From NCBI GenBank assembly GCA_021812245.1, contig JAKAOK010000006.1, positions 1 to 64,000 of the forward strand: 64,000 bases of DNA. The letters are read 5' to 3'. A model generated the notes under the pieces. That model was not told the DNA's origin. It worked only from the letters and a program-made list of their open reading frames with translations, and made no database searches. The stretch comes from a bacterium (GTDB lineage Bacteria; SZUA-79; Acidulodesulfobacterales; Acidulodesulfobacteraceae). The position numbers and the translations under genes were made by a program. Below are positions 52,749 through 61,687 of the stretch, one piece after another; position 1 is the stretch's first letter, and each line of letters starts with the position of its first letter.

Positions 52749-52751
52749 AAA

Positions 52752-52776
52752 GGGGACAGAATTGAATTCTGTCCCC
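52752..52776. repeat. 25-nt palindrome GGGGACAGAATTGAATTCTGTCCCC in the fabG-acpP gap
   Basis: Same arms as the palindromes at 32633 and 58449. Confidence 0.85.
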
Positions 52777-52815
52777 ATAATATAAAAACAATAAAAAAGG
52801 AGGGGGTGAAATTAA

Positions 52816-53049
52816 ATGTCAGTAGAAAACAAAGTTAAAGAAATAATAGTAGAGCAGTTAGGGGTTACTCCCGATGAGGTTATTAACGAAGCTTCATTCG
52901 TAGAGGATCTCGGTGCAGATTCTTTAGATACCGTTGAATTAGTTATGGCGTTTGAAGAGGAATTCGGAATAGAAATATCCGATGAAGATGCCGAAAAAAT
53001 TAAGACGGTTCAGGATGCGGTTTCATATATCGATGAACATGCAAAATAA
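52816..53049 (+). CDS. acpP: Acyl carrier protein
   Basis: [27 protein letters not shown]. Confidence 0.97.
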
Positions 53050-53075
53050 TTTATTATTATACCGGATTTTTTATT

Positions 53076-54332
53076 ATGGAAAAAATTGATTGCAATAGAA
53101 GGGTCGTTATAACCGGATATTCCATGATTACGGCTCTCGGCAACGATGCCGAAACGTCATGGAATAGAATGGTAAACGGGGAAAGCGGAGTAGGACCGAT
53201 TACAAGGTTTGATACCGAAGGGTATTCCACTAAAATAGCGGGGGAGGTAAAAGGGTTTGATCCGGAAAAATTTATAGAAAAAAAAGAAGTAAAAAAAATG
53301 GATCAATTCATACATTATGCTCTTGCCTGCTCAAAAATGGCATTAGATATGTCAGGGCTTAAAATTACCGATGCCAACGCCCACAGGGTCGGCGTATGGA
53401 TAGGAGCCGGTATCGGAGGGCTGATGACCATCGAGAAATATCATACTATGCTTTTAGAGGGTGGTCCAAAAAAGATTTCACCGTTTTTTATACCGATGCT
53501 TTTGATAAATCTTGCTCCGGGACAGGTTTCTATAATGACCGGAGCCAAAGGCCCTAATGCCAGTACCGTTTCTGCCTGTTCCACCGGAACTAATTCAATA
53601 GGAGACGCTTATAAAATTATTGCCAGAGGGGATGCGGACGCTATGATAGCAGGTGGCGCAGAATCTACGGTGTCCCCGTTATGTATTTCAGGTTTTAACG
53701 CAATGAAAGCGCTTTCTACAAGAAACGAAGAGCCGGCTAAGGCTTCAAGGCCATTCGATAAAAACAGGGACGGATTTGTAGTCAGCGAAGGCGCGGGCAT
53801 CATTATTCTGGAAGAAATGAACGGCGCCATACAAAGAGGGGCTAAAATATATGCCGAAATAGTCGGATACGGCGTGTCTTCGGACGCGTATCATTTATCT
53901 ACGCCGGATCCGGAAGCTACGGGGGCATATTATAGCATGAAAAATGCAATCAAGGACGGCGGTTTAGCGCCAGATGATATAGACTATGTAAATGCTCACG
54001 GGACATCCACTTATTATAACGACCTGAATGAAACTAAGGCGATAAAACAGCTTTTCAAAGAGAAGGCGAAAAAGATTAAAATCAGTTCTATTAAATCTAT
54101 GCTTGGGCATGCGCTTGGAGCCGCGGGCGGCATAGAAGCCGTTGCGACCGCTTTGACCGTTAATACGGGCATTATGCCTCCGACCATTAATCTGGAGGAA
54201 CCCGATCCTGAGTGCGATCTGGATTATGTTCCTAATACCGCACAAAAAAGCGATATAAAGTATGCTATATCCAACTCTTTCGGGTTTGGCGGAACTAATG
54301 CCACATTGGTTTTTAAAAAATGGGAGGATTGA
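53076..54332 (+). CDS. fabF: Beta-ketoacyl-ACP synthase II
   Basis: VSACSTGTNSIGDAY, NAHGTSTYYND, KSMLGHALGAAGG. Confidence 0.95.
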   Translation: MEKIDCNRRVVITGYSMITALGNDAETSWNRMVNGESGVGPITRFDTEGYSTKIAGEVKGFDPEKFIEKKEVKKMDQFIHYALACSKMALDMSGLKITDANAHRVGVWIGAGIGGLMTIEKYHTMLLEGGPKKISPFFIPMLLINLAPGQVSIMTGAKGPNASTVSACSTGTNSIGDAYKIIARGDADAMIAGGAESTVSPLCISGFNAMKALSTRNEEPAKASRPFDKNRDGFVVSEGAGIIILEEMNGAIQRGAKIYAEIVGYGVSSDAYHLSTPDPEATGAYYSMKNAIKDGGLAPDDIDYVNAHGTSTYYNDLNETKAIKQLFKEKAKKIKISSIKSMLGHALGAAGGIEAVATALTVNTGIMPPTINLEEPDPECDLDYVPNTAQKSDIKYAISNSFGFGGTNATLVFKKWED

Positions 54333-59731: not shown

Positions 59732-60211
59732 ATGAGTAATTTTAATTTAATAGAAGGGGAACTTAAAGCCGCAGGTTTCAGGTTTGGTATAGTTGTATCG
59801 AGATTTAACGATTTTATTAACGGCAAACTGTTGGACGGGGCGTTGGATTATCTGAAAAGGGCGGGGGCCGTCGAGGATAACGTATCGGTCGTAAAGGTTC
59901 CGGGAGCATTTGAACTTCCAATGGCCGTAAAAATGCTGTTGGAAACAAAAAAATACGATGCGGTAATCTGCCTTGGAACGCTGATAAGGGGCGAAACTAC
60001 TCATTTTGACCTGTTGTCGAACCAAGTCACGAAATTAATTTCCGAGCTTTCAATCCACTATAATGTTCCGGTGAGTTACGGAATTATAACCGCCGAATCT
60101 ATAGAGCAGGCTATATCGCGCGCCGGCACTAAAATGGGTAATAAAGGTTTCGATGCGGCAATGTCTGCCGTAGAAATGGCAAGCCTCTACGCAAAAATTA
60201 AGAAGAGCTGA
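59732..60211 (+). CDS. ribH: 6,7-dimethyl-8-ribityllumazine synthase
   Basis: FGIVVSRFNDFI, KVPGAFELPMAVKML, CLGTLIRGETTHFD. Confidence 0.95.
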   Translation: MSNFNLIEGELKAAGFRFGIVVSRFNDFINGKLLDGALDYLKRAGAVEDNVSVVKVPGAFELPMAVKMLLETKKYDAVICLGTLIRGETTHFDLLSNQVTKLISELSIHYNVPVSYGIITAESIEQAISRAGTKMGNKGFDAAMSAVEMASLYAKIKKS

Positions 60212-60228
60212 GTTTTAACTATTTATTT

Positions 60229-60687
60229 ATGACGAAAAGAAGAAAAGCGAGAGAGCTTGCTTTGCAGTTTTTATACGAAGAAGACGGAGATATAAGCAAT
60301 TTAGACTATAAAATAAATTGTTTTTATAATGATTTTGCTTCGGAAAGTCTTATAAGAGACGGATTTATAAAAACTAAAGAAGATTTAAACAGGAAAAAGG
60401 ATATTTTCCAGATTTTTGATTTCTTTGCTAATATCGTACGCGGAACTTTATTAAATTTAGAGAAAATCGACTGTCTTATCGCAGCGCTGGCTAAAAACTG
60501 GACTATTGATAGAATGTCGAGGGTTGACAGGAATATTTTAAGACTTTCTATTTACGAGATTTTATTTATTCCCGAAACTCCCAAAAACGTAGTTATCAAC
60601 GAAGCGATAGAAATAGCGAAGAAATTCGGAAACGACGAGTCGCCGGCTTTCATTAACGGCATCTTGGATGCGGCGGTAAAGAGGTAA
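60229..60687 (+). CDS. nusB: Transcription antitermination protein NusB
   Basis: RRKARELALQFLYEED, DRNILRLSIYEILF, NEAIEIAKKFGNDESPAFINGILDA. Confidence 0.92.
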   Translation: MTKRRKARELALQFLYEEDGDISNLDYKINCFYNDFASESLIRDGFIKTKEDLNRKKDIFQIFDFFANIVRGTLLNLEKIDCLIAALAKNWTIDRMSRVDRNILRLSIYEILFIPETPKNVVINEAIEIAKKFGNDESPAFINGILDAAVKR

Positions 60688-60689
60688 AA

Positions 60690-60950
60690 ATGGAGATTAA
60701 ATCGGAATTGAATTACGGCGGAGCCGTAATTGATATAAGAGGACTTTGCTGAGGCCCTCCGGTACGGGCGGTCGTCCATAAACTTAAAACTTTAAAACAG
60801 GATGACGTTTTAACGGTGGTTTCGGATAAAGATTCTTTACTGAATGATATTCCGGCTTTATGTTCTCTCATGAGCGTACAATTACTAAATGTGGTTAGTT
60901 TAAAAGACCTTTACATATTTTTTATCAAAAATAAAGATTGGAAAAAATAA
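60690..60950 (+). CDS. Putative selenocysteine-containing TusA/SirA-like protein (TGA at 60750-60752 read as Sec)
   Basis: MEIKSELNYGGAVIDIRGLC[U]GPPVRAVVHKLKTLKQDDVLTVVSDKDSLLNDIPALCSLMSVQLLNVVSLKDLYIFFIKNKDWKK; DxRGLxC and DIPxxC features flank the TGA in one frame; RBS-like AGAGG; absent from the ORF track. Confidence 0.78.
60763..60780 (+). promoter_or_regulatory. Candidate bacterial SECIS hairpin (TA-c-GGGC-GGTC-GTCC-a-TA)
   Basis: GGUC apical loop at 60770-60773, 17 nt after the TGA; upper stem 4 bp including one G-U pair, then a C/A mismatch and 2 bp. Confidence 0.6.
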
Positions 60951-60958
60951 AGGGGAAA

Positions 60959-61687
60959 ATGATTAGGAATAATAATAGAGCGGCAGATGAAATGAGGCCT
61001 GTTAATATTATCCCCGGTTATATGAAATACGCCGAAGGTTCGTGTCTGGTAGAAGCAGGCGATACTAAGGTGATTTGTACGGCATCCGTCGATTATAAAG
61101 TGCCGCCGTTTTTAAAAGACAAAGGCGAAGGCTGGCTTACCGCCGAATATTCTATGCTTCCGAGGTCTGCCCATAACAGGATACCGAGAGACTCGGCGAA
61201 AGGAAAAGTCAACGGAAGGGCTCAGGAAATACAGAGGTTAATAGGCAGGTCGCTCAGGTCGGTAATTAATTTTTCGTATTTCCCCGGGATAACAGTATTA
61301 ATAGACTGCGACGTGATAAGTGCGGACGGCGGAACGAGGACGGCTTCTATAACGGGGGCATATATCGCCGCTTATCTTGCATTCTTAAACCTTATAAAAC
61401 AGGAAAAAATAGAAAAGATGCCTTTTTACGATTCCGTTGCCGCAATAAGCATCGGCATCGCAAGCGGAGAAATTCTTCTTGACCTCGATTATTCGGAAGA
61501 TTCCACAGCCGAACTGGATTTTAATTTCATACTAACCGGTTCCCGAAAAATTATAGAAATTCAGGGATGCGCCGAAAAAACTCCGATAGAATTCGACGTT
61601 CTTGGCAAGCTCTATGAACTTTCAAAAACCGCGGTTGCAAAAATTACGGAATTGCAGAATAAAGCAATTTCCGGTTACGCATCTTAA
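60959..61687 (+). CDS. rph: Ribonuclease PH
   Basis: EGSCLVEAGDTKVICTASV, GWLTAEYSMLPRSAHNR, DCDVISADGGTRTASITGAY; ATG at 60959 preceded by AAGGGGA is preferred over the track's TTG at 60938. Confidence 0.93.
   Translation: MIRNNNRAADEMRPVNIIPGYMKYAEGSCLVEAGDTKVICTASVDYKVPPFLKDKGEGWLTAEYSMLPRSAHNRIPRDSAKGKVNGRAQEIQRLIGRSLRSVINFSYFPGITVLIDCDVISADGGTRTASITGAYIAAYLAFLNLIKQEKIEKMPFYDSVAAISIGIASGEILLDLDYSEDSTAELDFNFILTGSRKIIEIQGCAEKTPIEFDVLGKLYELSKTAVAKITELQNKAISGYAS

Follow-up and report, generated by a model that had tools for sequence, protein, structure and literature searches.

Between nusB and rph, on the forward strand of the 64,000-nucleotide stretch of DNA analysed here (the window), lies a reading frame that is interrupted by a single TGA and that the standard-code ORF list splits at this codon (Table 1). 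The window comes from a 1.78-Mb MAG (61 contigs, 87% complete) of the uncultured lineage Ca. Acidulodesulfobacterales / SZUA-79, whose members inhabit acid mine drainage and carry dsr genes (PMC6776010); same-family relatives include Candidatus Acididesulfobacter diazotrophicus and the isolate SZUA-79. Read through the TGA, the product begins MEIKSELNYGGAVIDIRGLCUGPPVRAVVHKLKTLKQDDVLTVVSDKDSLLNDIPALCSL, and the start codon, the TGA at codon 21, the TAA and the upstream AGAGG are all where an earlier note on this DNA had placed them. As the earlier note proposed, the gene may be expressed within the nusB-rph operon.

Table 1. Genes and features around the read-through frame, in window positions.
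Feature	Position	Strand	Remarks
ribH-like gene	59732..60211	+	upstream of nusB; stop codon TGA
nusB	60229..60687	+	PF01029, E=3e-35; upstream neighbour in 27/27 lineage loci
Shine-Dalgarno-like AGAGG	60680..60684	+	inside the 3' end of nusB, 5 nt ahead of the ATG; read directly from the sequence
Read-through ORF, predicted Sec-containing TusA-like protein	60690..60950	+	86 codons; ATG start; TAA at 60948-60950; PF01206; 27 orthologues with one TGA each
Cys20 codon TGC	60747..60749	+	partner of predicted Sec21 in a CU pair; Cys invariant in orthologues
In-frame TGA, predicted selenocysteine 21	60750..60752	+	catalytic-Cys column of TusA; TGA in 27/27 orthologues
SECIS hairpin, predicted	60763..60780	+	stem 60763-60769 / 60774-60780; GGUC tetraloop 60770-60773; based on covariation with slid controls, RNAalifold and a synonymous-codon null
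Cys58 codon, second conserved Cys (IPALCS)	60861..60863	+	invariant column; matches the second E. coli TusA Cys (DIPGFCT) in the alignment
rph (RNase PH)	60959..61687	+	PF01138, E=9e-28; downstream neighbour in 25/27 loci

Only two frames of the window stay open through a TGA when at least 15 codons are required before it and at least 35 after it, outside longer ORFs. One is the frame of Table 1. The other, at 52749-53075, runs antisense between FabG-like and FabF-like genes, in a gap where one would expect the gene for an acyl carrier protein; it came without further support as a gene and we judged it spurious.

The read-through product matches the Pfam TusA family PF01206 with 39.4 bits (cut-off 28.6, E=5e-10), which bears out the earlier note's view of it as TusA-like. 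Among proteins of known structure it found sequence matches only in 1dcj and 3lvj, both E. coli TusA; aligned to these, residue 21 takes the place of the Cys in GLRCPEPV (here GLC-U-GPPV), so that the TGA does occupy the catalytic Cys position as proposed, and Cys58 matches the Cys in DIPGFC. An AlphaFold2 model, computed with Cys substituted for Sec, has a pLDDT of 87, and among PDB entries Foldseek matches it best to TusA as bound to IscS in 3lvj (TM-score 0.83 by target, probability 1.00). A domain above the curated cut-off and a TusA fold together place the protein in the TusA superfamily (PF01206). With E. coli TusA (TusA/YhhP) it shares fold, length, the DxxGLxC.xPV reactive position and the second Cys of DIPxxC, but it differs in having the predicted Sec for the reactive Cys, a Cys just before the reactive residue, and UGPP for CPxP, a motif of the TusA equivalog of which the second Pro is kept. 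It is not filed as TusA proper, scoring 41.2 bits against the curated cut-off of 78 for the TusA equivalog NF001423; the YedF model TIGR03527 gives 12.5 bits (cut-off 110), the protein being only 86 aa long, and NCBIfam has no model that matches it.

A six-frame search of 30 genomes of the order, spanning 6 genera, found orthologues in 27. In every one of them a single TGA interrupts the frame, always at the same codon, with neither TAA nor TAG and with no frameshift after the TGA. Pairwise dN/dS for the part after the TGA was 0.05-0.26 (pairs where computable), indicating that the C-terminal two thirds are translated and under selection. Synteny is conserved too, with ribH as well as nusB upstream in all 27 loci, so that the homologue search proposed in the earlier note returned read-through orthologues that keep both the TGA and their place. 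Two of the genomes lacking an orthologue (G003, G024) also lack nusB in the assembly, and there the region was simply not assembled. In the third, G019, rph comes straight after nusB and the gene has been cleanly deleted (L066, G019:C131:1-768). This genome retains selA and tRNA-Sec, and carries a Cys-Cys paralogue (see below) on contig C128; no SelB scored above the cut-off in its 84% complete assembly. Such a clean loss, with selA and tRNA-Sec kept, shows that the protein is dispensable.

The source genome encodes every component that the earlier note had proposed to look for: tRNA-Sec (selC, C18:23527-23617, 70.5 bits), SelB (C59:27991-29916, 305 bits), SelA (C35:43408-44802, 572 bits) and SelD (C35:48826-49755, 362 bits). 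Of the 30 genomes of the order, 27 gave an above-cut-off match for SelB and 25 for tRNA-Sec. The selD gene (G000:C35:48826-49755; L075, L100) has an in-frame TGA of its own, at an HGUGCK site, and would itself be a selenoprotein gene; its TGA is followed by a strong hairpin whose stem is GGUCC/GGACC, a different design from the element with the GGUC loop in the TusA-like gene. TGA also serves as an ordinary stop in this genome (ribH at 60211, and again at 54332, 47707 and 36903), and since it ends many ordinary genes it is not globally reassigned.

Downstream of the in-frame TGA, 10 nt are followed by a 7-bp stem around GGUC. The earlier note had a hairpin begin 17 nt after the TGA; this distance holds for the loop, while the stem begins 10 nt after. 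The window's copy has one C.A mismatch in the stem, and when this stretch is folded alone another structure has the lowest energy (single-sequence z about 0), so that by itself the hairpin of this one sequence would prove little, and an Rfam scan of 60400-61200 gave chance matches only, with no model matching the hairpin. The alignment of the 27 sequences is more informative. The GGUC loop is invariant and the stem pairs co-vary (UAU..AUA, UUU..AAA, UUC..GAA, GG..CC, UG..CG or CA), 95.7% of alignment cells being paired against 29-52% with partners slid, and cells with two-sided changes number 23 against a shuffled mean of 9.8 (0 of 500 shuffles reach 23). RNAalifold recovers the same stem unprompted. 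The hairpin that the earlier note described is thus conserved, with covariation.

Because kinship among the sequences inflates covariation counts, we added a coding-aware null in which synonymous codons were resampled from the window's genes for the 21 distinct stretches. GGTC is present in 21/21, against a null maximum of 5, and the mean number of stem pairs is 6.67, against a null maximum of 6.14. Codon usage tells the same story: GTC encodes Val28 in 27/27 sequences and Val29 in 26/27 (the remaining one has GCC, Ala), whereas at the gene's other Val positions it accounts for 15 of 146 codons. A divergent homologue from a Nitrospirota MAG (L109, in G051) carries GGUC exactly 17 nt after its TGA, on a stem of different sequence (CUCAA/UUGAG, as CUCAA-GGUCU-UUGAG), and this supports the element strongly and independently. 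That 27 genomes conserve the TGA, the loop and the stem removes chance as an explanation, and we regard the hairpin as a predicted bacterial SECIS element, one that is weaker in the window's own sequence. It resembles the bacterial SECIS of E. coli fdhF, which has a GGUC apical loop and a bulged U, in having that loop about 17-18 nt after the UGA, but differs in its C-G closing pair, its uninterrupted 7-bp stem and the absence of the bulged U.

Homologues with Cys at the position of the TGA, another of the checks proposed, were found as well: in the alignment, Cys stands in this column in E. coli TusA, in a set of TusA-like paralogues with vicinal cysteines and in a related form of G051 (L106). 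In G007, G008, G011 and G019 these paralogues read DITG[LM]CCS[VA]P, with Cys-Cys at the Cys-Sec columns; G051 has both the Cys-Cys form L106 and the divergent Sec form L109. The Cys-Cys paralogues as a group (GLCCSVP / GICCAQP; G007, G008, G011, G019, G051) share the fold, the vicinal pair and about 40% identity with the read-through protein, but have no TGA, S[VA]P or AQP for GPP, and another genomic context, with genes for TetR, nitroreductase and aldo/keto reductase as neighbours. One locus of G011 (L069, G011:C11:13400-17600) holds two tandem TusA-like genes (1387-1644 and 1993-2226) with DITGLCCSVP and DITDLCSSCCLG, near genes for a TetR regulator, a radical-SAM protein and an aldo/keto reductase. 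An ordinary TusA with GLSCPLP (CPLP) is encoded in the same genome as the window's gene, and a further locus of the source genome (L101, G000:C54:823-1350) encodes a tandem pair of TusA-like domains, of which one has the motif SCCMPP.

Outside the order, the Sec form occurs on a contig assigned by binning to a Nitrospirae MAG (L062 / L114, G030:C44), in an unrelated neighbourhood that includes a flavin oxidoreductase and a toxin-antitoxin pair of the PIN type. In this MAG we found SelA (616 bits), together with a fragment of SelB at the end of a contig; the GC content of the contig is 48%, against 54-58% for the MAG's other loci, so that mis-binning or transfer is possible. In the second Nitrospirota MAG the divergent form (L109 / L116, G051:C117) reads VRGLCUGDPV (CUGDP) and precedes a PhoB/PhoR-like pair; a search of this MAG, whose completeness is not given, turned up no selA. 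A contig scan recovered the Sec form only from the Acidulodesulfobacterales / SZUA-79 lineage and one Nitrospirae-binned contig, but it relied on motifs including DIRGLCCG and PPV[WLR]AVV and would have missed more divergent Sec forms elsewhere. Neither tblastn against plasmids and phages nor a scan of viral contigs gave relatives. The 74-column tree is poorly resolved, and the Sec rows need 1-2 changes.

With coding conserved on both sides of the in-frame TGA and selA, selB, selC and selD all present, incorporation of selenocysteine at residue 21 is very likely on the comparative evidence. Were the TGA a true stop, the locus would hold a decaying pseudogene or encode just a 20-aa peptide, as standard gene calling, which ends at the TGA, and the loss of the gene in G019 would have it. 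However, purifying selection after the TGA, the absence of other stops and of frameshifts, the use of TGA and never TAA/TAG in 27/27 orthologues, and the conserved SECIS all contradict this; it is highly improbable, and we reject a pseudogene. Still more remote is a TGA read as some other amino acid, by a suppressor tRNA or a code change (TGA=Trp or Gly), which would account for the open frame and for nothing else: the genome uses TGA to end many ORFs, homologues carry Cys at the TGA column, and both the GGUC hairpin and a complete Sec machinery are present. Genome-wide reassignment is rejected given the role of TGA as an ordinary stop in this genome, as is a sequencing error, since 27 independent assemblies agree on the TGA.

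What the protein does is less certain than Sec incorporation. TusA, a well-studied protein persulfide carrier, takes persulfide on a single reactive Cys and hands it on. Our preferred reading, to which as a whole we give a probability of about 0.78, is that SelB and tRNA-Sec read UGA21 as Sec, directed by the GGUC-loop SECIS 17 nt downstream, to yield an 86-aa TusA-fold chalcogen carrier with Sec in place of the catalytic Cys and Cys20 before it (CUGPP). Sec21 would occupy the persulfide-bearing position of TusA, where the first helix begins, and may be a more reactive and more reducible acceptor and carrier of chalcogen (S or Se). Cys20 would then resolve it through a Cys20-Sec21 selenenylsulfide, the cargo being freed as sulfide or selenide or passed on. 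Such a Sec with an adjacent Cys might make the protein a carrier or a reductase that frees sulfur or selenium reductively, forming a redox-regenerated side branch of the sulfur relay in hosts that are sulfate-reducing or sulfide-oxidising acidophiles with an ordinary CPxP TusA.

Two other functions are live alternatives that likewise assume a selenoprotein, and the housekeeping context of nusB and rph, which gives no functional link, does not decide between functions. Instead of carrying sulfur or selenium, the Cys20-Sec21 pair could be a binding site for metalloids or soft metals (Hg, Cu, As(III)) in the metal-rich water of acid mines, the habitat of the lineage (PMC6776010), and CU pairs recur in the predicted metal-related selenoproteins SaoC, MbdU, HgcA and SaoL (PMC13188914). 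We consider this rather unlikely, as the gene sits between nusB and rph with no metal-handling neighbours, its fold and Cys58 match the sulfur carrier TusA, and the genes adjoining the Cys-Cys paralogues are not metal transporters. A role in carrying selenium, as selenide or perselenide on Sec21, to SelD in the manner of YedF-type SirA domains is a weaker candidate still. Gene context ties SirA-like YedF to SelD (PMC2432076, PMC5322559), the read-through protein has a weak match to YedF models (E=2e-5, below cut-off), and selD of the same genome is also encoded with a TGA; but the score is better for TusA than for YedF, with both NCBI equivalog cut-offs missed, and no sel gene is adjacent, selA and selD lying on C35, selB on C59 and selC on C18.

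The earlier note had also mentioned reports of Sec-containing SirA-like proteins, for which the literature searched gave no backing: the SirA-like protein of this literature is YedF, a selenium-metabolism protein whose SirA-domain motif is CPxP, with Cys (PMC2432076, PMC5322559), and an inventory from 2026, covering 119 selenoprotein families of prokaryotes, has no TusA/SirA (PF01206) entry in its table (PMC13188914). YedF shares a SirA/TusA-type domain linked to selenium metabolism but has an added DsrE-like domain, and matches between the two are weak. The same inventory does include DsrE-, rhodanese- and YeeE-type selenoproteins (PMC13188914). These DsrE-like, rhodanese-like and YeeE/YedE proteins resemble the present one in sulfur handling and in having Sec for a catalytic Cys, but have other folds and motifs (UxxC, UxxS, UxxG, GUxSG), and none belongs to PF01206. 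Our literature searches on selenoproteins, SirA and TusA found no Sec-containing TusA, though an earlier mention elsewhere is possible. Within the literature searched, then, the protein looks like a new predicted Sec variant of a known fold. Whether it founds a new family of Sec-TusA chalcogen carriers, with a vicinal Cys-Sec pair at the persulfide site and redox-releasable cargo, widespread in one uncultured acidophilic lineage and present in Nitrospirota as well, we see as an even call.

A natural TusA with Sec would allow one to ask what selenium adds to a persulfide carrier, in release rate, reducibility, resistance to over-oxidation, and selectivity for Se versus S, with controls at hand in the ordinary Cys TusA of the same genome and the Cys-Cys paralogues of its relatives. 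The alignment-based SECIS can seed further searches. For the organisms themselves, the finding would add an overlooked gene to a lineage important for acid-mine sulfur cycling.
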